A DNA stretch of 64,000 nt from Strobilurus pachycystidiatus. Taxonomy: Eukaryota; Basidiomycota; Agaricomycetes; Agaricales; Physalacriaceae. Under the pieces are notes generated by a model. That model did not search any database and had not been told where the DNA came from. It worked only from the letters and a program-made list of their open reading frames with translations. Location of the stretch: positions 1,054,001 through 1,118,000 of the forward strand of contig JAHLMK010000014.1 in assembly GCA_019915135.1 (NCBI GenBank), in the 5' to 3' direction. Below, piece by piece: positions 4,164 to 26,314 of the stretch (position 1 is the stretch's first letter; each line of letters starts with the position of its first letter). Both the position numbers and the translations under genes were made by a program.

Positions 4164-7100
4164 ATGACGAACGCTTTTTCCAAGCCTGTCAATCCGTTCT
4201 CGGAGCGTGTACAGGGTACAGGCTGCCACAAGTGCGAGTGTGCCTTTGCCTTTGTGCCCGGCAAGGAAGTTCAAAGCTACGCGCCGGACGATGTGTGCTT
4301 GTGTAGCTGTGCCCTCATTTTTCACTTGAAAGTGACGGCGCCAATGGTGAGGCTTCTCTTAGCACTTTGCCATCCCTCAACTTACTTTTCCTTAGCCACC
4401 GGAACCTGGCCCTCCATTGACGAGCCCAGAGAGCGAACCTACTCCTGCTTCCAAGCCTCAAGCGGTACCGAAAACCCCGTTAGAGGTCTGTTCATCTCTG
4501 TTGGCTCATATTCATCACTCAAGCGCAACGCGACAGGATCCCAACAAAATCAATCCAGACAAATTTCCAGGCGCCACAAACGAGACTCTCAAAGGCTCTC
4601 GGCCTGCAGGCGACAGCGATAGCCAATCTTACCATAAGCCTGGCGTTTGGAAAACTTATGCGAACATGAACTTCATGGACGCTCCCGCAAACCCTTGTCG
4701 CAATGCTGCCAAAAATCGAGAGGCCAATCGGCGGAACCAGAGCACACGCTCTTTCCCTTTTGATCCCGCCAATGAGGTGCGCGAGCTTTTCTGACGCTGA
4801 CTGCACTTGTACTTATGTTTGGACCTCTAGAAGGTCCAGGATAGCTTAGAGGATCACACCGGGCATGCTGCGCCCCGAGGACGGAAGAAAAAAGAGGTGA
4901 AAGCCTACAAGGGCTCGTGCATCCTGCTCCCCTGGACAAAACGCGTTCACCAAGGAACTGTCATTCGCCCGAATGAGGCTCTGTACCAGAAGCTGTCCGA
5001 CGCACGTTATGCTCGCGACATATCTCTCCACGATCCCGGTTCCAATTACGAGACCAAAGATGCCATCTCCACCGCCTTTGCACATATTAAGCCGCTCCGA
5101 AGACTGGACAATGTTCGAGAGGACTTTTCCTTTGACACATTTGAGATTTGTGAGATTCTCCGTCGGGAGAAACCTGGTGCCCGCAGCAGAATAGGTGTCA
5201 CCGAATCAGTCTACTTGGGCAGAGCCAGCTTTGGTCATCTGAAAAAGTGGGTCGTGTTGTGCAAATCACGTTCATCATATGCTGATACCTCTTCCAACTA
5301 GCAATGCACGAAAAGCCCAACCGTCGGGCATGAATAGCCAGATGTCGTTCTGCCTCTATATAGTCCTGCCTGAGGAGTATGAAGATCTGCCCTTCACGGA
5401 TCCAACAGAGCAACGGGAGAAAGCTCAACCAGAGCAGGCGGCATCATCGACGTCAAGAAAGGTACAGTTTATTCTAAGGTCCCAAGATCTTCACTTACAG
5501 TTCTACAAGCGCAAGCGCAAGCGCTCCCCTTCCCCGTCACCTCCACCAGTCAAGAAAGCCCGCCCAACCACATGTGTCATTGACGAGGACGATGCTCTCT
5601 TTGATAGTGACCCTAGCGAACGAGATGACTCGCCATCGCCCCCACCTATGCAGCCATCACATCGTCCAGCTTCTCCTCAACCTGTGGATCCAGACGCGTG
5701 TAAGACCAAGCGCCCCTCTCCATCCAAGGTACCTCGAGTTCCACCTGGTTGTTCAAATCTCTCATACCGTCCACAGATTCTGAAAATGCCTCCTGAATTT
5801 GGGTCCCTTGAACGAGCAATGTTGAACATGTACAGTCCACATATTGGTGGTCAACGGTTTGGCGACAGCAGTTACGGTGCGAGTGGGAAATGGGTACGCC
5901 TTTGATCAGATATCAGACTCATCTCCTGACATGGAAGCATAGTCGTCAACCTCCTCCTCGTATCATTACGCAAAGTTCGAGGTTCTCATTGGGCAAGCGG
6001 CCAATACGACTTTGATGGTCAAGAACTCGGCTTCTGTCAAGAACAATCCTCACTTCGCCACTGAGCTCCTACTAACGGACAAGACACACCTCACAGTATT
6101 TGAGCCTTTCAATACTGTCGCCTACAGTATCCGTTGCGCTCCCGATCATCCAGTGGAGGACAACCGTCCGTTCATCGATATCTTCCACCTTGGGAGTAAA
6201 AACTTTGGGGCCGCAGTCGAAGCTGCGCGTGACATGGCTAGTCTTACCATTCTCATCTCCGGTATAACTGGGATGTCCAAGGTGTCTTTGGCTGAGTTAC
6301 AGACGCACTTGGAATCACTAGCTCTTATTGCGGCTAATCTGGAAACGCTTATCACGTACTTCCAGCGCCAGGTGCCCGTCCAGTTCTGGTATCCTCTCAG
6401 TGGGTTCCGCCAGCTAGCTGCTGTAATTGAATTCAACCAGCCAGATCTTCGAACCTACACGGTATGGTCTTATATCTCCTCTTCTATACTACTCTGACTC
6501 TTTCTGAAGAGGCGAGCACCCCGGGATTCGGTCTTTCATAATGGCCTCAACCTCTTATCCGAGTTGTTAAAGGACGAAACCACCACGGTGGAGGACCTTA
6601 GCGAACATCTCAAGCAGTTTGCAGGTCATTGCAGTAATCCGGCGCTCATGTTCGTAACAACGCTCGACACGGGCTGCTTTGGCTTGGGACTATTGATGCA
6701 CATTCTTCGTCATCACCTATTGGATGCGCCGGTCGGGACGCACTATCATGACCTGACCGGAGTTCTGGGCCGTTTTTGCAAAGCTATCGCGTGGAAGCTG
6801 TTCAATTTTCTCAAGGTCAGACTTAATTTACACGCGCCTATATATACTGACAGTTCCTCTAGCTTCCAAAGTGTTACAGGCAATCTCGTCCTACCCATGT
6901 AGTCGAGGCGACTATCAACGAAACAACAGGAAACGAGGAACCCTCTGCCGGTTGTCGCCAGAGAGATACCTGTACGTCCAATTCCCCAATGTTAGCATGT
7001 TCTCATTCGTGTTCTAGATTTGGACCCATGTCCTAACGGACAGGATGACGAATGGTTCCTTGAGTTGGTCATACCCAGTAAGCTCAGTTTTTCATATGAT

Positions 7101-7652
7101 CATAGGCTATGTCTTGAACAGTTTGCAGATACCTTTACAAGGCGTGACTTCGGTTTCCCCTCGGAAGAACCCCAATCGGAACGTTTACCATCCGAAGAAC
7201 CACAACCGGAACGACCACGACCACGACCGAAACGGGCTGCACCCGAAGATAAGAATAAAGAACCTCTTTGGGATATCAGTGGCCCTGCCCTGAACACACT
7301 TGAAGGGAAACTCTTTCGCGCGCTTCAGTTTCCAGAGACCGTCTTCACTTGGGATAATCTCATCAAGTTTCTTCATCGCGACTTTGGCCATCCCCTGTTC
7401 ACGACGCGTCAGAGCTTCTGGCAGGGAACAACACCTGACAAGTCTCGGAAAGTGCAGTTCCGCGCTGCTCATTTGGTAGGAATTCTCTTGAACGACCGGA
7501 CCTGGCTAACAATTCCTTAGGCTTACTATCCTGACCGTAATACCCATCATATTGTTGGCAACGGAGATCTATGGGAGCAAATATGTAATGAATTGGCTGC
7601 TAGTATCATTCGTGTCAATCTGTCTGATCCACCGAAACCAAAGACAGTCTGA
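4164..7652 (+). CDS. Unknown 1018-aa transposon-borne protein (copy A), ten exons
   Basis: I do not recognise this family. Ten exons read as one frame: 4164-4346, 4396-4776, 4831-5246, 5302-5461, 5501-5893, 5943-6461, 6510-6815, 6863-6971, 7018-7475 and 7521-7652, with GT-AG introns of 39-55 bp (one with a non-optimal GTACAG donor). Residues 21-49 hold two cysteine clusters (CxxCxC and CxCxC) that could bind zinc. Basic stretches at 204-209 and 381-402 (KRKRKR followed by SP repeats and VKKAR) look like nuclear localisation signals. The rest is globular with one Pro/Arg/Glu-rich linker in exon 9. It lies 122 bp upstream of the transposase gene in the same direction, so it is probably an accessory transposition protein. 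That role is inference from position and from its conservation in copy B. Confidence 0.7.
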
Positions 7653-7774
7653 GGTTACAATATTACTCAGTCTCAATGTAGATTACTTGTCTAATTTTTT
7701 TATACGTACACTACGATGCGGACGTATATGCGTAATTGAACATGACGTGATTTTCATCTTCCTTTCACGCCACC

Positions 7775-9372
7775 ATGGAATCAGACAATGAACGCGACCA
7801 CACTGCCCAATTCCTACATCATTGTCACAAAGTTCTCAGCGACGCAGTCTTCATCATTACCTCTTTTCCCAATGCCGATGTAGGCGCTGTCGAGCGTATC
7901 TCATATCAACTCGAGGCCATACGCCGAGTTGCTCTATCACTGGAAGACGATAATCTGGCCGCAGAGGATGTCAAAAATATTGTGGCAAGCATTGACGCTC
8001 ATCTCCAGGACCTTCAGGACTTCTTGGACCATCCCCCACCATCTGTTTCCAGTCAGCTCCCTCGCCACCATACAGGCAGGCCTGGACGTCCAGCATATGC
8101 CCTGGATATGGAACGCATCTGTCTTCTCCATGATCTTGGCAACACCTGGGGCGATATTGCCAAGACATACGGGATTGATCGCAAGACACTGTTCTCGCAT
8201 ATCCGCCGCCATGGACTGGAAGGAGAGCTTCGGGAATTCACTGTCATCAGCAACGACGATTTGGATGAGATTGTCGCCCAATTCTCTCTTCAGCATCCCT
8301 TTACTGGGTCTGGCATACTACGTGGACATCTCCAGTCCCTGAACATCCACCTTCCTCGGAAACGCGTCCAGGAAAGCTTGAAAAGGGTAGACGTTCTGGG
8401 AGTCCTCACCAGGTGCGTGGCTTGATATCTACTTTGAGTGTTTATTCACCTTTCCGATAGATGGCACAGGACGACCAAACGCAGAGTCTACAAGGTTCGA
8501 GGCTCAAACGCGCTCTGGCATCAGGACGGCCATGAAAAACTCAAGTTCTGGGGATTCTGGGTTCATGGCTGTATAGATGGCCATTCCCGCCTCATTGTCT
8601 ACATGGAATGTCGATCGAACAAGCGCGCAAATACGGTCACTCAGTGTTTCTTGGCCGGAGTCGACATGCTTGGCTGGCCGAGTCGTGTTCGCGGCGATTA
8701 TGGGAAAGAAAATAACGGCATAGAGGCGGCCATGATCTTTCACTGGGGCGAGGCACATCGGTCCTATTTACGGGGGCAGCAAGTCTTCATTTCCTTTCCA
8801 AAACCTTTCCGTGTTGACTGGCATATAGATCTCTTCACAATGTTCGAATCGAACGTATCTGGGTGGACATGCAGAAGGATGCGCTCGAGGCCTTCCGACA
8901 GGTCTTCCTATATCTGGAACGGAACGAGCTATGGTACAAGGAAAACCCCATTCATTGCATATGTCTCTTCCTAGTCTTTCAGCCGCGTATTCAAGAAGCC
9001 CTCAACCAGGCCAAGGACGCATGGAACCATCATCAGATTCGGACTGCAAGGAACCGAACGCCGGTTGCCATGTACGAGTTGAGCCGCACGGACCTCATGC
9101 TCAAGGGCGTCTGGACGGGTGATGTGGGCGACGATATATCTTGCGTTGATGGATACTATGGCGTGGATGGTGGAGACGATGCAGGGATTGATATACAACC
9201 TCGGGAGGATGATGGTCCAACTTCACTCAACCGCGACGAGGACATTGAGGAGGCGCGCACTAAGCTCAGTGGCTTTGATTTTACACGCGATGATGGTAAC
9301 TGGGGTATCAATGTGTATTGCGAGGCTGTAGTACGACTGATATCTCTGCTGAATGAAGACACTTTAACTTAA
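7775..9372 (+). CDS. DDE/rve-type transposase (copy A), 499 aa, IS3EU-like
   Basis: Three exons, 7775-8412, 8461-8778 and 8829-9372, give 499 residues. Residues 101-150 (GRPGRP, then TWGDIAKTYGIDRKTLFSHI) form a helix-turn-helix that would bind transposon ends. Residues 214-400 match the rve integrase core found in eukaryotic integrase-like transposases: D235 in WHQDGHEK, D292 in RGDYGKEN and E327 in HNVRIERIW, a D-x56-D-x34-E spacing. The second intron (8779-8828) must be GC-AG to restore the RGQSLHNVRIERIW reading; its donor GCAAGT fits the usual GC-AG consensus. The 6-bp target duplications and TAT-starting ends suggest the IS3EU superfamily, from memory of that group. All catalytic residues are present. 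Confidence 0.88.
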
Positions 9373-9519
9373 GGCTTATGCCCAATTAAGACCTTGATCC
9401 GGACTCGGATGTTTAAGTCTTAAGTCCAAAAAGGAGATCCTCGCCGAGGGATTGATTTCACCTAGACACCAAACTTGGCAAAGTATTTCCACTACTTGAG
9501 AACACGAGACAAAGCTCAG

Positions 9520-9646
9520 TCAAAAGTACTCAAGAAAGTGCTTTGAAAAAGTCCAGGATTATAGTACGCGGAAAAGTACAACAAAAAGTACTTTTAGAGT
9601 CAAAGTACCGTGAAAAGTACTTCAAAAAGTAAGTACTACCTGATCT
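9520..9646. repeat. Subterminal AAAAGTAC repeats of copy A
   Basis: Many copies of (A)AAAGTAC or its close variants lie just inside the terminal inverted repeat. The same motifs flank the ends of elements B and C in inverted orientation. In other cut-and-paste families such subterminal repeats are transposase-binding sites; here that is inference. Confidence 0.75.
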
Positions 9647-9673
9647 GAATTATTCCCCACTATATCTCCCATA
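9647..9673. repeat. Right terminal inverted repeat of copy A
   Basis: Reads GAATTATTCCCC then ACTATATCTCCCATA, the reverse complement of the left end of element B. It ends at 9673; the next six bases, TGATTC, would be the target duplication, whose partner was lost with the left end. Confidence 0.9.
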
Positions 9674-9765
9674 TGATTCGAAGGTGGGCACGAACAGGCC
9701 CGAACCCAAGCGTACGTCACTCTATGCAGGTTGTGTAGGCGCGGTATAGCCTTCATCAGCCTTTT
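9674..9765 (-). pseudogene. Host F-box gene fragment 3 (between elements A and C)
   Basis: On the minus strand these bases continue the F-box reading frame interrupted by element C. After the TSD codons (K, R) they encode LMKAIPRLHNLHRVTYAWV and further residues, a typical helical repeat segment downstream of a fungal F-box. The frame runs 28 codons plus two bases to the edge of element A. The rest of the gene lay beyond element A and is not in the window. Bases 9760-9765 are one copy of the element C target duplication. Confidence 0.85.
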
Positions 9766-9792
9766 TATGGGAGGTATAATGGGGAATAATGC
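9766..9792. repeat. Left terminal inverted repeat of element C
   Basis: TATGGGAGGTATAATGGGG followed by AATAATGC. It pairs with 12544-12570 and is preceded by target duplication CCTTTT at 9760-9765. Confidence 0.92.
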
Positions 9793-10899
9793 AAAACACA
9801 AAGTACTTACTTTTTTCAGTACTTTCCGCGGCACTTTACTTTTCATCGCACTTTTTGTTGTACTTTCGATGGCACTCTCAAGAGCAATTTCTCGGGACTT
9901 ACGGGTAGCGTCTATATACGGACTTTAGCGCGCCGCGTGGTAACCAAAAGGAGCCTTTTTCTAATGTATTAATTTTGTAATTTGTAATTACTTATCTTCA
10001 TAGATGTGGCGCAAAAGGTCAGACTCACTCTGGACCTCGACGCGACGGCGGCGGCCAGTCCCATAAGTTCGGCTCAAGTATAGACGACATCAGGCATAAA
10101 CACGCAACAAGCTATCAGAACATACAGCCCAGTGAGCATACCATAAGTAAGGCTCACCAGACATTCAAGTTTGACGCTACACAGATTGCAAAGCAGGCTG
10201 TGAGAAACGTCAACTGGGTCCAGACATTGATAGAAACGAGACAAAGACTTGCCTCAAGCTTAAAGTGAGGACAGCAGTGCACAGCTGCCACCGACGTCAA
10301 GGTCCCGAAATATATAGCCACTGCCGGCGTGGTGTCTGGCGGGCAGACAATGACTTATGGACGATCATCACCAATGACTCTTCCTAGATTCAGAACAATA
10401 AGGTTCATGCGGAGCTCAGGCCGACTCACTTACCCTTGGTCCCGACGCAATAACAACGGCGGATACATAGTCGAATGCGTCACCCGCCTCGCACAGGGCG
10501 ACCAGGTACACAATATATTCGCAATTCTAGACATTGGCAGTCGTTTCGGAGGCTGGAAACGATGTCAACGGGGTCCGGAATGCACAGCAACTTGCAAGGT
10601 GAGGGCATTTGCGCTTCCAAGCAATGGCAAGGGGCATCGGCCGTGTGTGAGAGAAAGGGAGGGGGACATAGCCCGTATGTAGAGAGGTGTCATGATGTGG
10701 CCTCACCGCAACTCAAGGCCCTCCACTTTGGTCACACTTTGGCGTCCTGATGCTACGGCTACACAAACCAGCGCCACACCGGAAGGTGCCGAGAGATATA
10801 TCAAGGGGTTGAGAGTTCGATCCCTTATGGCGACAGAACCGGGATCCTGAAGTCCCGCCCTTGTCGGGCTTCCCGCCCTCCCGGATACACTTTGGAGCG

Positions 10900-11600
10900 A
10901 GCACACATGGTGTAAGACACCCCGGGAATATACTTAGGCCGCGTGAGTCAGGCGGGAGTCGGTACCCGACCAAACCCGCCTTCCCGACCAATGGGCGGTC
11001 ATCGATCTGTCGGGCGGTCATCAGGATGTCGGGATCTCCGTCATCCGCAGCGTCGGACCACTCCCGACGCATCGGGAGTATGTGGTAGAAGCTTCGAGAA
11101 GAGGAACGATGAGCAAGCATGGGATTAGTATAAATACAGAGACAGCGTTGTACTAGCTACTCAGACTTCGTCCTTAACCAGTTTTCCCCATACAACCCCG
11201 TTGGGCACTCTGAGCTCTCCGTGGTAGGACTCACCCACATGTCTCCCTTCGATACCTCCGCCAACGTCGTTGACTCCGACGAGAGAAGGCTCCCCGACGC
11301 CACACCTGGGACTAGGTCCGGCGGCGAGCCTCGTACCTTGGGATTAGGTTCCTACGGTATCACAGTCTCTGGCGAGATGGATGTGCGACCATCAAGGGCC
11401 CCTATGACTGGTACAGTACGACCAGTCGAGCACAATACGAGGATGTACGTGGTACGCTCGCAGGAAAGCTATGGGTTGACTACAGGGGTAGTCTCTCATG
11501 AGCGAGTCCTTGTCACGGCGGGGTCAGGTCGTAACAAGAGGGGGTAAGGACTCCAGTAGGCAAGTCTAGGGATTGATAACGCTGTTTGGTATCGGAGACT
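10900..11600 (+). repeat. Possible LTR-retrotransposon remnant inside element C
   Basis: The segment has a promoter-like TATA box (AGTATAAATACAG, near 11127) about 780 bp from an internal TTTGGTATCGGAGA sequence (11584-11597) that resembles the tRNA primer-binding region after a 5' LTR. It also has CGGGCGGTCATC repeats at 10990-11030. No gag or pol coding follows, and exact LTR borders could not be fixed. Confidence 0.3.
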
Positions 11601-12543
11601 ATTGGAACAAGAGGAGCAGGTCATGGAGCAGGCATGCACGGTGTTACAACAGTGGATGAATGGGTGATGATGATTACAGTCGAAATGAGCAAGGTGTGAG
11701 TCGTGGCCCCAAGGTCTCATGCTGGTTGCCGCTGAAGAAAACGGTTTGTGGTGACAGGAGAGGTGAGGTCTAGGCCGCAGATATCCCCGAAGAGATATCA
11801 GCTATGTGCAGAGACATCGGCGGCATGCAAGTGTAAGCCGCCGACGTCAATAAGAATGCCAGTGACTAAATGTATGAAATTTTGCTAACCTTGTTAAAAT
11901 TCCTAGGACCTACGGCGACGCCGCCCTCGTCAACAACCGCGCCCACATCACACCCCGTGCATTGCCCCGTAATTTGTCGGTGTGTTCACGTCCCCGTTGT
12001 CAGAGTTGTGCGGCCCATTGCCCAAGTTGAGGCGTGTCCCTCACCGAGCCGGTGATGTGTGAGACCTGTGTGAGTGATACCCTGGAAGCGGAGTCGCTAG
12101 TGGTCCTTCACGGCACGGGTACCTTTCGGATATCGCGTTAAAAAAAGAGGTGGTGGTGTAACCAGCTGTTGGTCAAAGGCAGAGGTGGCGACGATCCGAT
12201 CACCCGAGATTGCCCCAAGTCTCTCCGATCACCTGTACGCGCTTTGGAAAATGAGGAGGTATGATTGCTGCATGGATACTGCAACACTAGTCTTAGAGAA
12301 GTTCACGCGTACGATTGACCGTTCAACTTAGAGACTCCGGATCCAGGCCCGGCCCATGCCGTCTTGATTAGACATAAGTGTTTGAGCTAATAAGTCCAAT
12401 AACGGTAAGCCGCCGCCTACGTCGGCGGGACACCGGCCACTCAGAACGTGTTTGGAAAAGTACTATCAAAAGTACGGCAGAAAGTACTCTGAAAAGCAAG
12501 AACCCCTAAAAAGTGCGTCAAAAAAGTAAGTACTTTGCGTTCC

Positions 12544-12570
12544 GAATTATTCCCCATTATACCTCCCATA
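12544..12570. repeat. Right terminal inverted repeat of element C
   Basis: Inverse of the 9766-9792 repeat, ending CCTCCCATA, followed directly by target duplication CCTTTT (12571-12576). Confidence 0.92.
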
Positions 12571-12576
12571 CCTTTT

Positions 12577-12965
12577 GACGAGGCGATAATTCGAAGACCG
12601 CATCACCGGTTTGACATCGTTCCACATGCGGCGGACCGTTCTGCTTATAAGCGGGGCCCCCATTTTGAGAATCCCCCCAACAACATGTAGTTCCTTGATG
12701 TAGACACCAACGTCGGTGTTCCCCGATGTAAGCGCGTCGCAGAACGATCTGAGGGACTCCGTGCCTCTTCCAGTGTCAAAGTTTATATACAGAGTGCGGA
12801 AGACTTTCGCCTTGAGAGTTTGGTTTTCCGAGAAAGTGCTACATGTTGCGCGTAGCTGCAGCAAGTCGTCTCTTGACAACTGTAATACAGTGGGTTTGTG
12901 GTGAGTGACAGGCGGAAAGGTGAGGGTACCTGTTCAAGTATGATGTACAAGAGCTCCGGGGGGAG
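12577..12965 (-). pseudogene. Host F-box gene fragment 2 (between elements C and B)
   Basis: The minus strand encodes an F-box motif in two exons, 12965-12930 (LPPELLYIILEQ) and 12879-12577 (LSRDDLLQLRATCSTF onward), separated by a 50-bp intron. F-box domains link substrate receptors to SKP1 in SCF ubiquitin ligases, and large F-box families are typical of basidiomycetes. Element B interrupts the gene on the right (12966-12971 is its target duplication) and element C on the left. The frame is intact across the removed element C, so both insertions look recent. Confidence 0.88.
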
Positions 12966-12971
12966 GAAAGG

Positions 12972-12998
12972 TATGGGAGATATAGTGGGGAATAATTC
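12972..12998. repeat. Left terminal inverted repeat of element B
   Basis: TATGGGAGATATAGTGGGG followed by AATAATTC. It is preceded by GAAAGG (12966-12971). Confidence 0.93.
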
Positions 12999-13272
12999 AG
13001 ATCAGGTAGTACTTACTTTTTGAAGTACTTTTCACGGTACTTTGACTCTAAAAGTACTTTTTGTTGTACTTTTCCGCGTACTATAATCCTGGACTTTTTC
13101 AAAGCACTTTCTTGAGTACTTTTGACTGAGCTTTGTCTCGTGTTCTCAAGTAGTGGAAATACTTTGCCAAGTTTGGTGTCTAGGTGAAATCAATCCCTCG
13201 GCGAGGATCTCCTTTTTGGACTTAAGACTTAAACATCCGAGTCCGGATCAAGGTCTTAATTGGGCATAAGCC

Positions 13273-14870
13273 TTAAGTTAAAGTGTCTTGATTCAGCAGA
13301 GATATCAGTCGTACTACAGCCTCGCAATACACATTGATACCCCAGTTACCATCATCGCGTGTAAAATCAAAGCCACTGAGCTTAGTGCGCGCCTCCTCAA
13401 TGTCCTCGTCGCGGTTGAGTGAAGTTGGACCATCATCCTCCCGAGGTTGTATATCAATCCCTGCATCGTCTCCACCATCCACGCCATAGTATCCATCAAC
13501 GCAAGATATATCGTCGCCCACATCACCCGTCCAGACGCCCTTGAGCATGAGGTCCGTGCGGCTCAACTCGTACATGGCAACCGGCGTTCGGTTCCTTGCA
13601 GTCCGAATCTGATGATGGTTCCATGCGTCCTTGGCCTGGTTGAGGGCTTCTTGAATACGCGGCTGAAAGACTAGGAAGAGACATATGCAATGAATGGGGT
13701 TTTCCTTGTACCATAGCTCGTTCCGTTCCAGATATAGGAAGACCTGTCGGAAGGCCTCGAGCGCATCCTTCTGCATGTCCACCCAGATACGTTCGATTCG
13801 AACATTGTGAAGAGATCTATATGCCAGTCAACACGGAAAGGTTTTGGAAAGGAAATGAAGACTTGCTGCCCCCGTAAATAGGACCGATGTGCCTCGCCCC
13901 AGTGAAAGATCATGGCCGCCTCTATGCCGTTATTTTCTTTCCCATAATCGCCGCGAACACGACTCGGCCAGCCAAGCATGTCGACTCCGGCCAAGAAACA
14001 CTGAGTGACCGTATTTGCGCGCTTGTTCGATCGACATTCCATGTAGACAATGAGGCGGGAATGGCCATCTATACAGCCATGAACCCAGAATCCCCAGAAC
14101 TTGAGTTTTTCATGGCCGTCCTGATGCCAGAGCGCGTTTGAGCCTCGAACCTTGTAGACTCTGCGTTTGGTCGTCCTGTGCCATCTATCGGAAAGGTGAA
14201 TAAACACTCAAAGTAGATATCAAGCCACGCACCTGGTGAGGACTCCCAGAACGTCTACCCTTTTCAAGCTTTCCTGGACGCGTTTCCGAGGAAGGTGGAT
14301 GTTCAGGGACTGGAGATGTCCACGTAGTATGCCAGACCCAGTAAAGGGATGCTGAAGAGAGAATTGGGCGACAATCTCATCCAAATCGTCGTTGCTGATG
14401 ACAGTGAATTCCCGAAGCTCTCCTTCCAGTCCATGGCGGCGGATATGCGAGAACAGTGTCTTGCGATCAATCCCGTATGTCTTGGCAATATCGCCCCAGG
14501 TGTTGCCAAGATCATGGAGAAGACAGATGCGTTCCATATCCAGGGCATATGCTGGACGTCCAGGCCTGCCTGTATGGTGGCGAGGGAGCTGACTGGAAAC
14601 AGATGGTGGGGGATGGTCCAAGAAGTCCTGAAGGTCCTGGAGATGAGCGTCAATGCTTGCCACAATATTTTTGACATCCTCTGCGGCCAGATTATCGTCT
14701 TCCAGTGATAGAGCAACTCGGCGTATGGCCTCGAGTTGATATGAGATACGCTCGACAGCGCCTACATCGGCATTGGGAAAAGAGGTAATGATGAAGACTG
14801 CGTCGCTGAGAACTTTGTGACAATGATGTAGGAATTGGGCAGTGTGGTCGCGTTCATTGTCTGATTCCAT
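13273..14870 (-). CDS. DDE/rve-type transposase (copy B), 499 aa, IS3EU-like
   Basis: Mirror of the copy A gene; exons 14870-14233, 14184-13867 and 13816-13273 on the minus strand. The HTH (residues 101-150) and the D235, D292, E327 triad are intact. The only protein change noticed is E495Q four residues before the C-terminus. The stop codon lies about 300 bp inside the left terminal repeat, so the gene reads outward. As the only transposase gene in a complete element with clean target duplications, it is the best candidate for the enzyme that moved A, B and C. The GC-AG second intron is conserved. Confidence 0.9.
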
Positions 14871-14992
14871 GGTGGCGTGAAAGGAAGATGAAAATCACGT
14901 CATGTTCAATTACGCATATACGTCCGCATCGTAGTGTACGTATAAAAAAATTAGACAAGTAATCTACATTGAGACTGAGTAATATTGTAACC

Positions 14993-17900
14993 TCAGACTG
15001 TCTTTGGTTTCGGTGGATCAGACAGATTGACACGAATGATACTAGCAGCCAATTCATTACATATTTGCTCCCATAGATCTCCGTTGCCAACAATATGATG
15101 GGTATTACGGTCAGGATAGTAAGCCTAAGGAATTGTTAGCCAGGTCCGGTCGTTCAAGAGAATTCCTACCAAATGAGCAGCGCGGAACTGCACTTTCCGA
15201 GACTTGTCAGGTGTTGTTCCCTGCCAGAAGCTCTGACGCGTCGTGAACAGGGGATGGCCAAAGTCGCGATGAAGAAACTTGATGAGATTATCCCAAGTGA
15301 AGACGGTCTCTGGAAACTGAAGCGCGCGAAAGAGTTTCCCTTCAAGTGTGTTCAGGGCAGGGCCACTGATATCCCAAAGAGGTTCTTTATTCTTATCTTC
15401 GGGTGCAGCCCGTTTCGGTCGTGGTCGTGGTCGTTCCGGTTGTGGTTCTTCGGATGGTAAACGTTCCGATTGGGGTTCTTCCGAGGGGAAACCGAAGTCA
15501 CGCCTTGTAAAGGTATCTGCAAACTGTTCAAGACATAGCCTATGATCATATGAAAAACTGAGCTTACTGGGTATGACCAACTCAAGGAACCATTCGTCAT
15601 CCTGTCCGTTAGGACATGGGTCCAAATCTAGAACACGAATGAGAACATGCTAACATTGGGGAATTGGACGTACAGGTATCTCTCTGGCGACAACCGGCAG
15701 AGGGTTCCTCGTTTCCTGTTGTTTCGTTGATAGTCGCCTCGACTACATGGGTAGGACGAGATTGCCTGTAACACTTTGGAAGCTAGAGGAACTGTCAGTA
15801 TATATAGGCGCGTGTAAATTAAGTCTGACCTTGAGAAAATTGAACAGCTTCCACGCGATAGCTTTGCAAAAACGGCCCAGAACTCCGGTCAGGTCATGAT
15901 AGTGCGTCCCGACCGGCGCATCCAATAGGTGATGACGAAGAATGTGCATCAATAGTCCCAAGCCAAAGCAGCCCGTGTCGAGCGTTGTTACGAACATGAG
16001 CGCCGGATTACTGCAATGACCTGCAAACTGCTCGAGATGTTCGCTAAGGTCCTCCACCGTGGTGGTTTCGTCCTTTAACAACTCGGATAAGAGGTTGAGG
16101 CCATTATGAAAGACCGAATCCCGGGGTGCTCGCCTCTTCAGAAAGAGTCAGAGTAGTATAGAAGAGGAGATATAAGACCATACCGTGTAGGTTCGAAGAT
16201 CTGGCTGGTTGAATTCAATTACAGCAGCTAGCTGGCGGAACCCACTGAGAGGATACCAGAACTGGACGGGCACCTGGCGCTGGAAGTACGTGATAAGCGT
16301 TTCCAGATTAGCCGCAATAAGAGCTAGTGATTCCAAGTGCGTCTGTAACTCAGCCAAAGACACCTTGGACATCCCAGTTATACCGGAGATGAGAATGGTA
16401 AGACTAGCCATGTCACGCGCAGCTTCGACTGCGGCCCCAAAGTTTTTACTCCCAAGGTGGAAGATATCGATGAACGGACGGTTGTCCTCCACTGGATGAT
16501 CGGGAGCGCAACGGATACTGTAGGCGACAGTATTGAAAGGCTCAAATACTGTGAGGTGTGTCTTGTCCGTTAGTAGGAGCTCAGTGGCGAAGTGAGGATT
16601 GTTCTTGACAGAAGCCGAGTTCTTGACCATCAAAGTCGTATTGGCCGCTTGCCCAATGAGAACCTCGAACTTTGCGTAATGATACGAGGAGGAGGTTGAC
16701 GACTATGCTTCCATGTCAGGAGATGAGTCTGATATCTGATCAAAGGCGTACCCATTTCCCACTCGCACCGTAACTGCTGTCGCCAAACCGTTGACCACCA
16801 ATATGTGGACTGTACATGTTCAACATCGCTCGTTCAAGGGACCCAAATTCAGGAGGCATTTTCAGAATCTGTGGACGGTATGAGAGATTTGAACAACCAG
16901 GTGGAACTCGAGGTACCTTGGATGGAGAGGGGCGCTTGGTCTTACACGCGTCTGGATCCACAGGTTGAGGAGAAGCTGGACGATGTGATGGCTGCATAGG
17001 TGGGGGCGATGGCGAGTCATCTCGTTCGCTAGGGTCACTATCAAAGAGAGCATCGTCCTCGTCAATGACACATGTGGTTGGGCGGGCTTTCTTGACTGGT
17101 GGAGGTGACGGGGAAGGGGAGCGCTTGCGCTTGCGCTTGTAGAACTGTAAGTGAAGATCTTGGGACCTTAGAATAAACTGTACCTTTCTTGACGTCGATG
17201 ATGCCGCCTGCTCTGGTTGAGCTTTCTCCCGTTGCTCTGTTGGATCCGTGAAGGGCAGATCTTCATACTCCTCAGGCAGGACTATATAGAGGCAGAACGA
17301 CATCTGGCTATTCATGCCCGACGGTTGGGCTTTTCGTGCATTGCTAGTTGGAAGAGGTATCAGCATATGATGAACGTGATTTGCACAACACGACCCACTT
17401 TTTCAGATGACCAAAGCTGGCTCTGCCCAAGTAGACTGATTCGGTGACACCTATTCTGCTGCGGGCACCAGGTTTCTCCCGACGGAGAATCTCACAAATC
17501 TCAAATGTGTCAAAGGAAAAGTCCTCTCGAACATTGTCCAGTCTTCGGAGCGGCTTAATATGTGCAAAGGCGGTGGAGATGGCATCTTTGGTCTCGTAAT
17601 TGGAACCGGGATCGTGGAGAGATATGTCGCGAGCATAACGTGCGTCGGACAGCTTCTGGTACAGAGCCTCATTCGGGCGAATGACAGTTCCTTGGTGAAC
17701 GCATTTTGTCCAGGGGAGCAGGATGCACGAGCCCTTGTAGGCTTTCACCTCTTTTTTCTTCCGTCCTCGGGGCGCAGCATGCCCGGTGTGATCCTCTAAG
17801 CTATCCTGGACCTTCTAGAGGTCCAAACATAAGTACAAGTGCAGTCAGCGTCAGAAAAGCTCGCGCACCTCATTGGCGGGATCAAAAGGGAAAGAGCGTG

Positions 17901-18481
17901 TGCTCTGGTTCCGCCGATTGGCCTCTCGATTTTTGGCAGCATTGCGACAAGGGTTTGCGGGAGCGTCCATGAAGTTCATGTTCGCATAAGTTTTCCAAAC
18001 GCCAGGCTTATGGTAAGATTGGCTATCGCTGTCGCCTGCAGGCCGAGAGCCTTTGAGAGTCTCGTTTGTGGCGCCTGGAAATTTGTCTGGATTGATTTTG
18101 TTGGGATCCTGTCGCGTTGCGCTTGAGTGATGAATATGAGCCAACAGAGATGAACAGACCTCTAACGGGGTTTTCGGTACCGCTTGAGGCTTGGAAGCAG
18201 GAGTAGGTTCGCTCTCTGGGCTCGTCAATGGAGGGCCAGGTTCCGGTGGCTAAGGAAAAGTAAGTTGAGGGATGGCAAAGTGCTAAGAGAAGCCTCACCA
18301 TTGGCGCCGTCACTTTCAAGTGAAAAATGAGGGCACAGCTACACAAGCACACATCGTCCGGCGCGTAGCTTTGAACTTCCTTGCCGGGCACAAAGGCAAA
18401 GGCACACTCGCACTTGTGGCAGCCTGTACCCTGTACACGCTCCGAGAACGGATTGACAGGCTTGGAAAAAGCGTTCGTCAT
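14993..18481 (-). CDS. Unknown 1018-aa transposon-borne protein (copy B)
   Basis: Mirror of the copy A gene with the same ten exons (start 18481, stop 14993). It keeps the cysteine clusters, basic segments and all splice sites. Two amino-acid differences from copy A were seen, R226C and K719E; no stop or frameshift. It lies just upstream of, and is co-oriented with, the transposase. I do not recognise the family and assign no function. Retention of an intact 3-kb coding frame in both copies suggests it matters for the element. Confidence 0.7.
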
Positions 18482-21400
18482 GGTAGTTGGTAGTGGGATG
18501 AGTGGAATAGACGGAAGGAAAATTTTGCCTCGGCGAAGGGGGATTATCCTTGTGTGGCCATATTGTGATCGCCCGGCCTCTAAGCCGCGCCTCCTGTGTC
18601 GGCTCCTGACGGTGTCTCCAGAGACGAACCATCTCATAAAGGAGGTATGATTCCAGGCATAATTTTCGTCTACTTTCTCTACGTTGGACTTCGATGTACT
18701 ATCCAGTAGGTTTCTGATCCAGACAACGAGGCAGTGGACTTGTCGACGCTGCTAGGCGTTCGTGCTGGTCATTCGAGCTGGTCATTTGAACCACAATGTC
18801 GTACGGACTGTAAGCAGTGATCTGGCGATGCCCAAATTAGAACGTGGAGTGAACATGAACACGATTACTTACATAGATGTCCTTTTCGGAGAGGTGAACA
18901 GTAGGCCAAGAGTTCATCTTGAAATGAAAGAGGGTGAGCTACGAGCTGCGATACGCTTGATGGCGCTGTACAGAGCGGAATGGGTCAATGAGAATTGCAT
19001 TAGGTGTATGAGCCAGGACACTCACGGGGGGGGGAGCGCGTCTCCAAGAAGGAAGAACACATCAATTGTGAGGTGTATGTAGTGGTGGAGAGGGCAAGAG
19101 ATGATGAAGATGTTGGGATCTGGGCTGATGAACACTAGGAGGGCTGGGCGGCGAACACGCCGCTGAGTGGACGTGGAGAGAGAGAGATGAGGAGAGGGGC
19201 ACGATACGCGACGAGGAGACGGTGACGAGCTACGCGCGAGGAGCGCGTAGAAGGATGCGTGTACGTTCGCTATGCTCAGATCCACTATCACAGCATCAGT
19301 ACATATATTATTCAAGAGCAGGCTACTCACGTTTTTCCACTAGTCTGGAACCATATATATCCGCCAAGCGTGTTCGATTTCGGCAGTAGAAAGACGCGAA
19401 CGAATGGCCTCCATTGATCAGGCACTTGTCGTCGGTGAAGGGTGGGAGACAGAAGCAGGTCACCGCCAATGATAGGCGGGTAGTGGTGGGGGCGGACACG
19501 CTTTGAGGAGCTGGGTTTGGGCCGAGCGTCCATCGGCGGAGCTGCATGGGCGCGTGCGCGACGGAGGAGACAGTGCATACGTGATGGAGGGGACGCTGTG
19601 TGCGCAAAGTGGAGGAAGCGACGACAGAGGAGACAATGTGAAGACGCGAGAGACGCGAGAGACGCGTGGTATGCGGGAGACGCAAGCACCAGACGACGGG
19701 TGGGTAGTGGTGTGCAGGTGGAAGGCGGGTAGTGGGTGGTGGGTAGTGGGCGGCGTGTGCAGGTGCGACAGTGAGAGGGCGGAGACGCGTGCGCGCAAAG
19801 GTGAGCAACGACGAGACACACGTGCGCAACGACGGAGACGCGTGTGCACGACGGTGGAACGCGGGAGACAATATAAGCAGGGCATGGTGGGTGATAGGTG
19901 ATGGGTGATGGGCAGGTGGTGGGCGGGTATCGGGCGGGTAGCGGGCGGGTAGCGGGCAGCGTGTAGTGGGCGGCGGGCGCGCGTCGAGGAGCTGGGGTCT
20001 GGCGCACGTCCAGTGTCCATGGCCGAGGGCAGAGAGTTCGAGGCCAGCTCAAGGCTAGCCGTAGATCGTGGTCCGATGGTGTTGGCGCTGAGCTGTCAGG
20101 CGGGTGGGCGGCAGTGATGAGGAGCAGAGGAGGAATGAGCTCCACAGTGCGCTCGACCTGTCATGTTCCGAGACCGATTTGGGACTAATAGTGACATCAA
20201 CGACACGTCGAGAGGAGACAATCAGCGCGCAGACAGAGCTCACCATTTTGATGCCATTGTGGGAGGGTGATTGGCTTGTTGAAGGACACGGTGGTGGTAG
20301 TGGAAGAAGGAAGGACATGTCAAGTGCAAGATGTGTGCAACGTGCACACTACCCGCAAGGCGAGGCGAGACGTGTGGAGGTTGCACGGAAAGCGGGAGTG
20401 GTAGGTGGATGGGCTTGACGGCGAGCTCGCCCTCGAGAGATGGTGTTCATGAGCACGAGAGTGACAACTACGACCGAGGGATATCAGACGCGTGGTGGAG
20501 AGAGAGGGCAGGTGTTGGTGAAGATGTTGCGATCTGGGTTGATGAACAGCCCGGCAAGGCCGGAGACGTTTGCGGCGCGGAGTGGATGAGGAGAGAGAGA
20601 GAGAGAGACGGGTACAATACGCGACGAAATACGCGACGAGGACACTGGCGCGCCACCAGAGAGAGACGTGTGAGAGATGTAGGCACACGGCATTGGGTGC
20701 AACGCGTGCGATGGGCGAATATGCTACGGTGGGTGGAGTCATGCGTGATCATGGAGACGTTCGTGTTTGGAGGAGGCGGCGTGCAGCGGGCGTGGTAGGT
20801 GGATGGTAGGTGGATGGGTGTGACAGCGCAACGGCGGGCGAGCGGGCGAGACGGCGGATGAGCGGGCGAGACGGCGGATGAGCGGGCGAGACGGCGGGCG
20901 AGTGGGCGAGACGCGCTGTTTCTAGGCCTGACAGTGACCTCAACACACTGAGTGAGTGAGGGATAGTGGAGAGGGCAGGTGCTGATGAGAATGTTGGGAT
21001 GGCTGAGGAACATTGAGTGGGTCGGGCGCGGGGCGCGGTGGGCGCGGAGGGCGAGACGTGCCGGGATGGAGACGTGCAGCGCTGAAGAGAGCGCGTCGAC
21101 TGCCTGAGCCAGGCATAGGCACAAAGACGGGGCCTGGTGCTTGGAGGTAACCTTGCTGATGTTATCAGATGGCGGCGGCGCCGGGTCGCAGGGCGCGCGC
21201 AGGCGGTAGTGATGCTGAGCAGAGGAGGGATGAGGGCGCGGGAACTTGGCTCTGAGAGCCAAGTTCCCACGACAGCACGAGCAAGGGTGGACGCGGTCGC
21301 GTTGAAAGAGAGAGCAGAGGACGTGACCATCAACAGGTCATGTTTGGCTGTGTTGCCCAGGTGTTTGTTGCACCTTCTCTCCTCCCACCACCTGCAAGAA

Positions 21401-22684
21401 CGCCAAACCACCGGGGCGCACCCTCTGAGCATGGAGGCTAGCGGCCCAGCCGGGCGTTAGTTACCACCATCCCACGCGGAACGGGAGAACGGACGCGGCC
21501 GCGCATGCACCGCGAGAGACGGCGCGCGTTGTGCTGCCAATTCAAAGTGCGTTGATTAAACCTTTCTTCATCTTCATCTTGTCTCACTCGCACTTCTCAA
21601 GGACAGCAACCCAACTGACACAAGTACCCGCCTCACCCGGCCCTGGCCCCACATTTCCCCGCCTTTTCCCCGCATCGCCCGCCGGCATCTGACGACCAGG
21701 CCGCCGCATCGTCTTCAAGCTCCATGACGACATTGTGCCTAAGACAGCGAGCTCGCCACTGGCCAGAATGGCTTCGGATACGCCGGCTCTAGCTTCCACC
21801 GCATCATTGCCAACGGGTGAGAAGCTCGTTGGTAAGTCCGCCCACGCCGCCCGATGGCGCTGATCTGACCGGCGCCCCGTATAAGAGAACGAGACAGCGC
21901 GTCAGCTTAGTGCCCTCGTACAGCAATGCCGAACAACGGCGTGCACTCTGGATAGGACCGTCCTGCTCAAGATTGACAGTTCTCTCTACTGCCACACTCC
22001 TCTGCACCACCACCACCTCTCTCGGCTCTCGTTGCACGGCGCGACGTGCACCTCTCTCCTCAGTTCCACCGGGGCATCGTCGCTCCTTTGTCTGCCTCCC
22101 AGTCCACTGGATGGACATCGACATCGACGCGAGCCGCGTCACCTCGTTCGCCGACCACCACCTCGTTCGCCGACCACCATCTCGTTCGCCGGCCACCACG
22201 GCTGTCTTCGCACCACCTCCAAACCTCTTACAGTCCACTCCTCCTGCGCCCATCCGGTGCTGCACCAGGGTGTCGCGCCCACCACCGGGCTCAGTCTGAC
22301 ATTGGAGCTGACGCCCTACGAGGACGACCGAATTGATAGCTTGGTCTTCGTTCGAGCTCACAGATCCCGCGACGCTGCTTGACCTGAGCGTGGAGCAGTG
22401 CGTCGACCTGGCACTGTGACGAGGACCGTTCACCAACGGATACGCCGTCGTAGACGGTTGTCAAACTTTCCTTTGAATGTTCAACTTACTATACAATCCA
22501 TCCCTACCTACACATACTAGAGATTTACTATACATAACGTAGCATTTTCTGTAACCGGTTTTTCCATTGAACTTTGAATGAAATGAGTACGTTGTGCAGC
22601 AAAATGAAGCGAAATGAAGCCCTCACGGAGTCTGAACTCTAAATTCATGAACTTGTCCACTTCCCACCATCTTCTCGGATCCTC
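18482..22684. other. GC-rich centre of element B between divergent genes
   Basis: No complete gene is supported. The left part repeats the copy A low-complexity block in inverse: 20-bp minisatellite near 20832-20914, GA run at 20591-20606. The part unique to B has a three-unit 19-bp tandem repeat (22143-22199, units CTCGTTCGCCGACCACCAC) and a cyclophilin fragment. Promoters for both outward-reading transcription units must lie in or beside this block, but I see no clear TATA box. Confidence 0.6.
21688..21820 (+). pseudogene. Captured cyclophilin (peptidyl-prolyl isomerase) fragment
   Basis: From 21699 the plus strand reads GRRIVFKLHDDIVPKTA, then after a frame change reads ELATGQNGFGYAGSSFHRII and ANG before a stop. 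This is the N-terminal third of a cytosolic cyclophilin (GRIVF, VPKTA, NGFGY, GSSFHR). A few residues between VPKTA and the ATGQNG segment are missing and the frame is broken at least once, so it cannot be functional. It lies inside the transposon, so it looks like host sequence picked up by the element. Confidence 0.78.
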
Positions 22685-25600
22685 ATGACGGGCGAGCACC
22701 AAACTCAACTGCCTCACCCGGACGAGCTTTCGAGACGCCAACTCTACGCACTGCTGAAAGCATCTGAACAGCCTTTGACACCATGTCTGCAGAATTGGCA
22801 GCGCATCTTGAGCTTTGAAGGTGAGTCTTTCTGCCTGCCATTTCTGCCTGAGTTCAGCACGTTTACGCGCGCTAGAAATATCCAATGCCGCTCTGCCTTC
22901 ACCATTGAACACACCCACGCGTCCGGGCGCGCGTCCGGTCGCGCACTCTTTAGATTCTGCCTCCGCGGCCACAACTTCAGCAGAATATGGCCCTGCCTCT
23001 CATTCCGGCTCTCCTTCTCGAGCACGTTCTCAGTCTCCTGCTTCTCCTATCGACCTGGCTACCGCCTTTCATCATCAGTCCACTACAGATTCAGGATCAC
23101 CCATGCGAGTCGAGTCCCCCACGCACATTGACACCGACTCTGGAGCCTCTCACTCTGACTCAGGCCTGGACTGGGACTCAATGACGCTTGAAGAGCAGCT
23201 TCTGGCGAGTTTGTCTCCACCCAGGATTGCCCGTTCTCCTGAAGAGTCTGACGATTCCGACCCTGAGGAATCGGATCGCATTCTTGAAGAGGGGGGACGT
23301 CAGATGAAACGTCTTTGTGAGGGTTGGCGTTGGAGTAAAGAGGAAAGAGAACGGCATACGGCGCATGTTGAACAAAGTCTGGAGGCTGAAGAACGAGTCG
23401 GTCGAACGGCGGAGAGACAGGCTAACCGCCGTCCGAGAAGAGGTAGCTCATGCAACCGTGGCCAAGGCGGACTACCACCTGCTCGTACGGCCATGCGGAC
23501 GGCTGATGATGGTGATGTGGAGATGACTGGTCCAGAGGGCGCAGACGGGAGAGACACAAACACAGACCGAGAAGAGGCAAACACAGATGGCGCCGCCAAT
23601 CCATCCACCACCACCATACCACCCAACCAACGGCGTTCTTCTGGGCCATACCAACGTTTTGCAACCCCGCACGCCTCCCGGCTCTCGGATAAACTTTCGC
23701 GCTGTCTTGTTCGATTGGCAGGGAAGTGTCTTCATGTCTTGGAGACTACGCACCTCGACAATTGGTGGTCTCAGGTACTTATTGGGAATCCTGAATCTGG
23801 GATCTCTGAGAATACGCGCGATCAGAGTCTCCGGGGAATTCTTGCTCGTCTGGAACAAGCAGAGATTGACGAAGCCTCTGCCGGTTTTCGCCGCATTCTA
23901 GGATCTATTGCTCTGTGTCACAAGTTGGAGTTCTATCCAAAGAAAGACGGGTATATCTTTCATTTCATTTAATATCATCCACTTGCTCATTTGTGTTCTA
24001 GAAGAACGCTCACGGCAAGGGAGATTTGGGAGAAGGAAGGGCGACCGGGACGGTTCAATCGCCTGACATATTTTCAGCGCGTCGGAAAGTGTTGGATTAT
24101 GTGGGCACGAGGTGGGGGTATCTTCTTCATCCTCTTGGCCCTGCGCGCTCGAGAAACTGGAATCCTGGAAGACGCCACATACGGGGAAATCCAGACTGCT
24201 ACGCGTTTTTTCGTGCTCCCGCTAAAGGTATGGGTATCTACTATGGTCTGTGCCTTTCTGACATGTACCAGGAGAGGCAACATCAGAGTTGGTGTTGGCG
24301 TTCTTCAAGCCAGCAATCAATAACCTTCGCAAAGTTGTTCACGTCAGCTTGGGATCCATTTGGCCCTCGAGCACTCAACATCAGGGTCTGCCCGTAGACG
24401 CTCTTTTAACTGATTGGAAAACATCGGATCACTTCTTTGAGCAGATTGGAACGCGGTATGTGTTTGTTCAGACCATGTATGGCGCCTTAGTGACCAATCT
24501 CTCTAGTACCTTCTTGCCTGGTCAGCGGAATACGGCCATCTGGGATATCTATATACCAGACGACGATGAACTGACAGTGTCTCCCGTTCACCAAATATCC
24601 TCTGATGGCTCCAGTAACTCTCTTCTCTCTCACAATCTCCGAGGACTCAGCGGCTACGAGTTCTTCAATAACACAGTCGGTCACGGACACGGTAATCAAG
24701 ACTATTCTACTGAAATAGTCACATCAAAAAGCGACGTTGATATAGACTGGATGAACATTCTCATTGCTCTCTCACACAGTCTCCGAGAGAATGACATCAA
24801 GATCGCCACTGATTATAATCCCCAGGATCGCCACAACAGATTCAAGCTCGGTGGTGCTAAGCGGCCGGAAATCAAGTCGTTCACACAGGCTATTCGCTTA
24901 ATGGCATCCTTCGCCGATGAGCCGGAGAGCCTCGACGAGTTTAGAGCTCTGGTATGTGCATTCTTAATCATTGTCATTGTGATTCAGACGATCCGGGCCT
25001 AGATGAAGAAACAGCTGAGTGGCGGTTATCGGAAGGATCCATGGGATTATGTGATTATGGATCGAAGAAAATTAGTCCAAGAGTAAGTCTCACCTTCAGG
25101 AAATACACTCAACCATTCACGTATTTGTTCAGTACCGACTTTCTCCATGTGATGGATGGCGATGGACTTCCTCTGGTGATCGCCCTCCCGCCTCTTCCTC
25201 AGCATTTGCGGGACGCTCTTATACCATTGCTCGATGCCTCGTACCCAAAACTTGTCAAGACGTATGGCTCAGAGGAGGAGACCACAGATCTGAGAGGTAT
25301 GGCTTCACATTGCTCATACTACAACCGGTTTGCGACAAGGGTATGTAAATTTCTCTGTTTGCTATCTGATCTAATGAAACATAGGGTCATGAGGCGCCAG
25401 TAGAGGGTGACGCGTGGGCACTAGGACGGCCTGGTCAGAAGCGCACTGATCCCTCTCAGTATATCCCGCGTCTTGCTGCTGAAGGGAAAGATGAACGCAC
25501 TCAAACATTCGTCGCGGCTATCGAGCCCATAACAGCATGGTTGAGCGAGAAGGTCTGAGCGCCCTTCTTTCTCTGCTCAGTGGTTCATTGGCTGATCCTC

Positions 25601-26001
25601 TACAGTTACGCGAGCTACTCCCTAATCACACGTGCACTATCCTCGATGTGCAATACCATACCCTTCCTGCGTCCGCCACACCGCCACTCTATCCTTTCAC
25701 CGGCTTGGTCATCAATCTCAACGTGGCTACTCGCGCTCATCGAGATCACAAGGATCATGTCATCTGTCTCTCGATGACTATCATAGAGGGGAAGGGTGGG
25801 GATCTGGTAGTTGTTGAGCCAGGCGTGGTCATCCGGATGCAGACAGGCGATGCGGTTATATTTCGCTCGTGCGATGTTACTCATCTCAATATGCCATTTG
25901 TTGGACGAAGGGCATCTCTGGTCTTCCACAGCGATCAAGACCTCAACTCCTGGGTGAAGGATGCGAATGGATGGGATCCCAAGACGTATTTCTCGCCTTG
26001 A
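22685..26001 (+). CDS. TET/JBP-family 2OG-Fe(II) dioxygenase, 970 aa, nine exons
   Basis: Exons: 22685-22820, 22876-23950, 24002-24227, 24277-24455, 24507-24951, 25003-25082, 25133-25340, 25385-25552 and 25606-26001, summing to 971 codons with the stop. Introns are 44-55 bp; the third acceptor (24276) is the least certain. Residues 14-26 (ELSRRQLYALLKA) resemble a SAP-type DNA-binding helix, followed by an acidic Ser-rich linker. The C-terminal 131 residues are the catalytic double-stranded beta helix: iron ligands H884 and D886 (AHRDHKD), GGDL, H932 (VTHLN) and the 2-oxoglutarate arginine R940 or R941 (GRRASLVFHSD). Family members oxidise 5-methylcytosine or thymine in DNA. Known fungal members are linked to KDZ transposons; here the partner is an rve transposase. 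Confidence 0.88.
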
Positions 26002-26109
26002 TTTACAGGTTCTGTAAAATATTAATCTAAATATCCTTTTTGGTATGTTTGTGACCGACCGGCCTGCCGAATATAGACTTTATCCGGAGAGTCTGAAAAG
26101 GCGAAATGA

Positions 26110-26257
26110 AACTGTGCTTCAAAGTGAGATGAAAAGTACGCTGAAGTAGTGCGCCAAAAAAGTACAAGAAAAGTGCGGCGCAAAAGTACAACAAAAAGTG
26201 CTACTGAAAGTCGAGTGCTCGTAAAAAGTTCTCTGAAAAGTGAGTCCTTGTCGGTTT
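26110..26257. repeat. Subterminal AAAAGT(AC/GC) repeats, right end of element B
   Basis: About ten AAAAGTAC, AAAAGTGC or AAAGTG motifs between the dioxygenase stop and the right terminal repeat. They are more degenerate than at the left end. Confidence 0.75.
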
Positions 26258-26284
26258 GAATTATTCCCCATTATATCTCCCATA
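26258..26284. repeat. Right terminal inverted repeat of element B
   Basis: Inverse of 12972-12998 with one mismatch, ending CTCCCATA. It is followed by target duplication GAAAGG (26285-26290). Confidence 0.93.
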
Positions 26285-26314
26285 GAAAGGCAAAGCATGC
26301 TGTGCAGAGTACAT
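26285..26314 (-). pseudogene. Host F-box gene fragment 1 (start codon and first ten codons)
   Basis: The minus strand from 26314 reads ATG and encodes MYSAQHALPF, ending at the element B target duplication (CCTTTC on this strand). Joined to 12965 it continues in frame as LPPELLYIILEQ, the F-box. This ATG is therefore the likely native start of the disrupted gene. Confidence 0.85.

Follow-up and report, generated by a model that had tools for sequence, protein, structure and literature searches.

A predicted TET/JBP dioxygenase gene carried by an IS3EU-type transposon in the agaric Strobilurus pachycystidiatus

Introduction

Does a cut-and-paste transposon that encloses both a transposase gene and a gene for a TET/JBP-type dioxygenase carry the second gene as working cargo? 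The question was raised by a 13.3-kb transposon unit of Strobilurus pachycystidiatus (Agaricomycetes; assembly GCA_019915135.1), located at positions 12972-26284 of a stretch of 64,000 nucleotides (the window, contig C14 1054001-1118000; C14 is JAHLMK010000014.1). The genome analyzed comprised 51.8 Mb in 61 contigs. We consider it probable that the unit is an IS3EU cut-and-paste transposon with its own transposase, a further gene (G2) and a captured TET/JBP dioxygenase that benefits the element through DNA oxidation. Binding of the transposase to the inverted ends and subterminal repeats would lead to excision of the element and its reinsertion with a 6-bp stagger, while the dioxygenase may oxidize 5-methylcytosine (5mC), and possibly also N6-methyladenine (6mA), on DNA including that of the element, which would either lift silencing by methylation or prepare the ends for transposition. 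How the element moves is well supported by its anatomy (ends, target duplications, DDE residues and near-identical copies are all observed); the role proposed for the enzyme draws on its modeled fold, its conserved iron-ligand residues, selection on its family and the C5-methyltransferase genes of the host.

Boundaries and copies of the element

The boundaries were fixed to the base, and the single unit with matching ends and perfect GAAAGG repeats that the initial annotation had described proved exact. Its termini read GAAAGG, TATGGGAGATATA...TATATCTCCCATA, GAAAGG, a perfect 6-bp target duplication (left, 12966-12971; right, 26285-26290) around long inverted ends with the outermost bases TATGG..CCATA. 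The left terminal inverted repeat (TIR; 12972-13100, + strand) starts with TATGGGAG and contains subterminal AAAGTAC-type repeats, and the right TIR (26157-26284, − strand) terminates with CTCCCATA. The two ends share 19 of their 20 outermost bases and can be aligned over ~128 bp at 76% identity. AAAGTAC was present six and three times in the outer 250 bases of the two ends and was absent from the remaining element; the repeats appear to sit at the usual place for transposase binding.

The left 329 bp of the element recurred at 99%-100% identity at two further sites, each with a paired right end and its own perfect duplication, and the ends are therefore not due to chance. Repeat counts in the genome are lower bounds; at least eight end matches were found, making both ends of four elements. 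The second copy is inverted (C14:1019648-1063673, − strand, duplication TGATTC at window 9674-9679); its first 8065 bases are window 1609-9673, and its remainder is outside the window, to the left, beyond a nested insertion. A third long copy was found at C10:675371-765026 (duplication TATACG) and a 2.8-kb short relative, with ends 76%-79% similar, at window 9766-12570 (duplication CCTTTT), inside which a search with the rva_4 transposase profile gave no match. The perfect 6-bp duplications thus differ at each site in 4/4 elements, and TATGG..CCATA is common to the three long copies found and the short relative.

Later insertions have extended the two other long copies to 44 kb (C14) and 90 kb (C10). 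Aligned blocks covered the whole element, except for ~1.2 kb lost from the C10 copy between internal repeats, and the order was the same from end to end in all three copies, apart from that loss and the later insertions. When divergence was counted without alignment blocks shorter than 400 bases, the inverted copy showed 18 mismatches (0.135%) and a single gap against the window copy over 13,329 aligned columns, and the C10 copy 100 mismatches (0.82%) and 72 columns with gaps over 12,157. Because divergence between copies is this low, movement was recent. The CpG observed/expected ratio was 0.95 in the element and 1.06 in window 26291-64000; the element is not CpG-depleted, which is compatible with little C-to-T decay but proves nothing.

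The left ends of the two near-identical, opposite copies (window 9673 and 12972) lie 3.3 kb apart with the short relative between them. Such close spacing may point to local hopping.

Transposase and G2

The gene order in the element is transposase, G2 and, at the far end, TET/JBP. As initially annotated, the transposase (− strand) and the TET/JBP gene (+ strand) read outward, and their spliced models encode 499 and 987 amino acids, respectively. The transposase model contains two introns and no stop, with exon 1 at 14233-14870, exon 2 at 13867-14184 (catalytic Asp 235 and Asp 292) and exon 3 at 13273-13816 (catalytic Glu 327); the intron following exon 2 was modeled as GC-AG. Pfam profile rva_4 (PF24764) matched the spliced protein at E 1.7e-61; rve was weak, and helix-turn-helix profiles, which fell in exon 1, were very weak. 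The catalytic residues D235/D292/E327 form a DD34E triad, in which 34 residues separate the last two, and the model contained no HHCC motif and no C-x2-C upstream. IS3EU elements are described as encoding an rve-like DDE transposase with the first Asp 100-300 residues from the N terminus and without HHCC, and as having TA..TA termini and target duplications usually of 6 bp (PMC10045372, to the extent that source was drawn on). All three features, transposase type, termini and duplications, were found here, and the element is for that reason assigned to the IS3EU type, which upholds the IS3EU-like label that its transposase had first been given.

Ten relatives of transposase exon 1 were found, three of them named: Hymenopellis radicata (77% identity over 39% of the query), Mycena polygramma and Auriscalpium vulgare. 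These three, like the two named fungi with relatives of the dioxygenase given below, are Agaricomycetes. The genome also gave a match above cut-off to PF11895, the class II peroxidase extension, which is an Agaricomycete family. The third gene, G2, has several exons at about 15128-18249 or further (− strand; its start is perhaps nearer 18750), and no Pfam family matched it among the element open reading frames (ORFs) tested. Its relatives adjoin other rva_4 transposases, being present beside three other transposase loci of the same lineage.

The dioxygenase and its possible substrate

The TET/JBP gene (+ strand) was modeled with seven introns and eight exons: exon 1 (22685-22820), exon 2 (22876-23950), exon 3 (24002-24227), exon 4 (24277-24951), exon 5 (25003-25082, alternative acceptors also open), exon 6 (25133-25340), exon 7 (25385-25552) and exon 8 (25606-26001, one alternative acceptor open), the last encoding the double-stranded β-helix core with the HRD, His and Arg motifs. 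Tet_JBP (PF12851) was the only notable Pfam match of the protein (E 5e-4 to 4.5e-3), with scores of 16.7-19.8 bits, short of Pfam's curated cut-off of 34.9; since this match is itself sub-threshold, the TET/JBP assignment rests on the fold search and the relatives. A protein search with an exon-sized alignment returned 52 relatives of the TET core, two of which are named (Cylindrobasidium torrendii and Fomitopsis schrenkii). PF12851 was present in the precomputed annotation of 8/52, and hmmscan of 10 relatives matched it in 8/10 at E <= 0.001, all below the cut-off. The long TET model (residues 300-987) yielded no match among 7993 scored candidates, a difference that probably arises because most fungal-contig proteins in the database consist of one exon. 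Among 29 viral-contig stretches that fit a pattern, none encoded a relative.

The structure of exon 8 was modeled from 56 sequences (predicted local distance difference test, pLDDT, 84.7); a four-sequence AlphaFold model (pLDDT 37) was discarded in its favor. Foldseek of this model against the PDB placed CcTet in rows 1-12 and NgTET1 in rows 13-16, with prolyl hydroxylases below, and in VIA-align 2 NgTET1 and CcTet headed the list, above AlkB, with a small margin over a cupin. The only TETs among VIA-align's 50 rows were NgTET1, CcTet and CMD1, and the absence of others carries no evidence; PDB sequence searches found no TET. By the fold search, the modeled enzyme has the TET/JBP variant of the 2-oxoglutarate (2OG)-Fe(II) double-stranded β-helix.

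An HxD...H set of iron ligands with a downstream Arg is a hallmark of TET/JBP enzymes. In an alignment of 56 rows, with counts taken over the rows that have residues at a position, the exon 8 ligands were H45 (52/52), D47 (52/52) and H93 (56/56), and R102 was found in 54/55. The HxD of the window enzyme is HRD, and HxD was found in 52/52 rows, so the HxE of the PE type is not present. At +5 from the HxD His, counted ungapped from published residue numbers as was +11, Asp occupied 53/53 rows, where the AG type has Gly or Ser; at +11, where the AG type has Asp, 55/55 rows had Val, Ile, Ser, Thr or Leu (Val or Ile in 52/55; Ser in the window enzyme). On these residues the predicted enzyme is of HxD type and lies outside the AG and PE types.

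These residues bear on whether 5mC is the substrate. A TET-fold 2OG dioxygenase could instead act on RNA, histones, 6mA or thymine, so that any benefit to the element would not pass through 5mC. In CcTet the Asp at +11 is reported to be essential for 5mC, and likeness of fold fixes no substrate, given that the products of CMD1 and JBP differ (Kojima, 2025; PMC12730594, as far as the portions of it used here extend); the missing +11 Asp is in keeping with another substrate. The best structural matches, however, were the TETs CcTet and NgTET1 and not prolyl hydroxylases or AlkB, and we regard action on another substrate as rather unlikely. Seven matches to the C5-methyltransferase family PF00145 lay above cut-off in the genome, which makes 5mC a plausible substrate. 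One study (PMC8889193) reportedly deals with oxidized 5mC in Laccaria and Coprinopsis.

Relatives in the genome and retention of the dioxygenase

If the TET gene were cargo, it should be asked whether it is found in the other copies and whether its sequence has been conserved, or whether it is a chance passenger, carried into a single IS3EU element through recombination without being of any use to it. The full-length copies were checked for the dioxygenase, since family members without it had been named as grounds for the passenger reading: the TET region was present in 3/3 long copies found. In favor of a passenger, subsequent insertions have interrupted exon 2 of the gene in both of the other copies (2/3 split; element positions 10332 and 10201).

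Besides the three copies, TET relatives were found at three loci, on C7, C4 and C6. The C7 relative, 77% identical in the core, was the most similar other TET found in the genome. It lies in a 7.9-kb element (C7:1984751-1992656, which is L026:751-8656) with TATC..GATA ends and the perfect duplication CGTTTG; the same scan, with or without the TA rule, scored 0/200 Markov sequences. Inside this element, searches revealed neither a transposase relative nor a G2 relative. Its left 500 bases had one match in the genome, and its inner TIR, compared by eye, is unlike that of the window family beyond TA. The window and C7 enzymes were sisters (100/95) in a 56-sequence tree, with P0002 adjoining (100/94). 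Between their cores, 80% of synonymous and 14.5% of non-synonymous sites differed; across the six pairs among four TET cores (131 codons), non-synonymous differences were 14.5%-38.6% versus 70%-80% for synonymous ones, the latter near saturation. The marked deficit of non-synonymous relative to synonymous differences means that purifying selection acts on this enzyme family.

Relatives of the transposase were sought with rva_4, which gave 34 matches at 18 loci, three being the window family; four of the other 15 loci were read. Loci C1:5070 and C1:5089 are one tandem duplication. At these (30 kb read) and at C9:696 (10 kb read) a G2 relative was present and no relative of the window TET was found, a point in favor of the passenger. 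The interval C1:5064001-5094000 holds a sequence, at least 10.7 kb long and with repeated 850-bp units, that recurs 19.3 kb downstream at 99.95% identity.

The transposase at C1:5873, 63% identical in exon 3, is also accompanied by a G2 relative, and between the two lies a different 2OG dioxygenase (weak Tet_JBP match, 15.4 bits, E 0.011) that is 41% identical to a C26 protein 5.8 kb from a KDZ match. The element ends there were placed at C1:5873212-5882765 (L029 [C1:5871001-5881000] 2212 to L030 1865; 9.6 kb, duplication AAAAGA, 17/24 end bases alike). The right end starts with TTTGG and not TA, 2/40 random sequences also scored, and scanning the stretch more widely turned up another pair, unrelated to the first (5549-18331, 18/24). 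Applied elsewhere, the same scan gave one match in C1:5064-5094 and many in C10, mostly palindromic six-mers in large inverted repeats. This locus is probably a second IS3EU-type element with another dioxygenase, its ends being tentative. A 39% relative of the C1:5873 dioxygenase was observed at C10:706290-706799, within a 44-kb insertion of the C10 copy.

Against a chance passenger stand the presence of the gene in every long copy found, the strong purifying selection on its nearest relative, whose own element has IS3EU-type ends and gave no transposase relative, the single clade that the two enzymes form and a TET-IS3EU pairing published from seven rust species (PMC12730594, in the portions used here). 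We judge that a passenger is unlikely, and favor a captured dioxygenase that serves the element.

A separate transposon (KDZ, CACTA or other) carrying the TET gene and nested in the IS3EU element was also considered. Fungal TET/JBP genes are said, by Iyer et al. in 2014, to travel with KDZ transposons. KDZ matches were plentiful in the genome, although none of those listed falls on contig C14 (150 scored out of 249 candidates, the list being limited to the stronger matches). No match to the KDZ transposase PF18758 was found in the element ORFs tested, as initially noted, and the sole transposase families there were rva_4/rve. The C4 and C6 TET relatives (50% identity, HxD and not HxE) lie beside Transposase_21 (PF02992, CACTA/EnSpm) matches of 27.5 and 26.8 bits, just below the cut-off of 28.6. 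A reading of the ORFs beside these two TETs as Plavaka was rejected, no match being found there in the Pfam scan or in the PF18759 genome search. Kyakuja elements lack inverted repeats and have CA..TG ends with 7-bp duplications (PMC12730594, as far as used here), and one CA..TG pair with the 7-bp repeat AGATGAA does enclose the TET gene (18155-26126), but at least one such pair occurred in 180/500 random sequences. Around the gene (left edge 18000-22685, right edge 26001-26280), no inverted repeat was found that was accompanied by a duplication of 5-9 bp, so the search for a KDZ boundary near 22.5-26 kb yielded nothing above chance. Together with the same end-to-end order in the three copies, this makes nesting very improbable.

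Comparison with published TET-bearing elements

The initial annotation had suggested that different transposon classes recruited the same epigenetic enzyme. That idea is correct but not new, since both it and the pairing of IS3EU with TET are already known (Kojima, 2025; PMC12730594); the comparisons below are with the portions of that paper used here. TET-bearing IS3EU elements were reported in seven Pucciniales species and one in Tuber indicum, and the TET-bearing elements of Agaricomycotina are given as Kyakuja, Zisupton, EnSpm, Plavaka and Helitron2. The Pucciniales elements share with the window element the IS3EU class, 6-bp duplications, TAYGG..CCRTA ends, TIRs longer than 30 bp and an internal TET/JBP gene. 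In all of their families, however, TET lies between the transposase and an alpha-kinase gene, whereas here TET comes last, after the transposase and G2, and the host is an Agaricomycete. The Tuber indicum element likewise combines IS3EU with a TET/JBP gene, whose enzyme is of PE type (HxE), unlike the HRD enzyme of the window. TET-bearing Kyakuja and Zisupton (KDZ, AG type, including CcTet) resemble it in Agaricomycete host, HxD motif and best Foldseek match, but have a KDZ transposase and 7-bp or 8-bp duplications, respectively, in place of rva_4 and 6 bp, and the AG markers are missing at the ungapped positions of the window enzyme's alignment. TET-bearing EnSpm and Plavaka of Agaricales are of PE type; the C4 and C6 relatives, which adjoin the sub-threshold Transposase_21 matches, differ from them in having HxD and not HxE.

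Set against those portions of Kojima (2025), the new features are the occurrence of IS3EU in an Agaricomycete, an enzyme with HxD that is neither of PE type nor marked by the AG residues, the gene order, the C7 element, which has IS3EU-type ends and TET but no recognized transposase, and, on a tentative footing, another IS3EU family whose dioxygenase is a different one. The range of TET-bearing IS3EU is widened from rusts and one truffle to an Agaricomycete, with an enzyme that falls outside AG and PE, whereas the types published so far are AG, PE and PU. It is conceivable, if somewhat doubtful, that IS3EU-type elements here captured TET-fold dioxygenases at least twice at different element positions (the far end in the window family; between transposase and G2 at C1:5873212-5882765), the C7 element keeping the enzyme without a recognized transposase. 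On that reading, selection within this superfamily would have favored the oxidation of DNA methylation as a cargo function more than once, and even elements that borrow their transposase would keep it. This one genome, which has three copies, a relative with TET alone and sister transposases beside which no relative of this TET was detected, is suited to testing a cargo benefit: do TET-bearing copies have less 5mC, or more oxidized 5mC, than matched TET-free elements?

Intergenic region and later insertions

G2 and the TET gene, which are read divergently, are separated by a G+C-rich region with dispersed direct repeats (18700-22600). The insertion in the TET gene of the inverted copy (C14:1022641-1028618, ~6 kb) is bounded by direct repeats of 413 bp, and its 11-bp duplication is near-perfect (CTGACGTCCCC/CTGACATCCCC). 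That in the TET gene of the C10 copy (C10:744054-761894, 17.8 kb) has a perfect 42-bp inverted repeat, TACCG..CGGTA, and the 6-bp duplication TGGACT, and contains ORFs that we take to be gag-pol-like.
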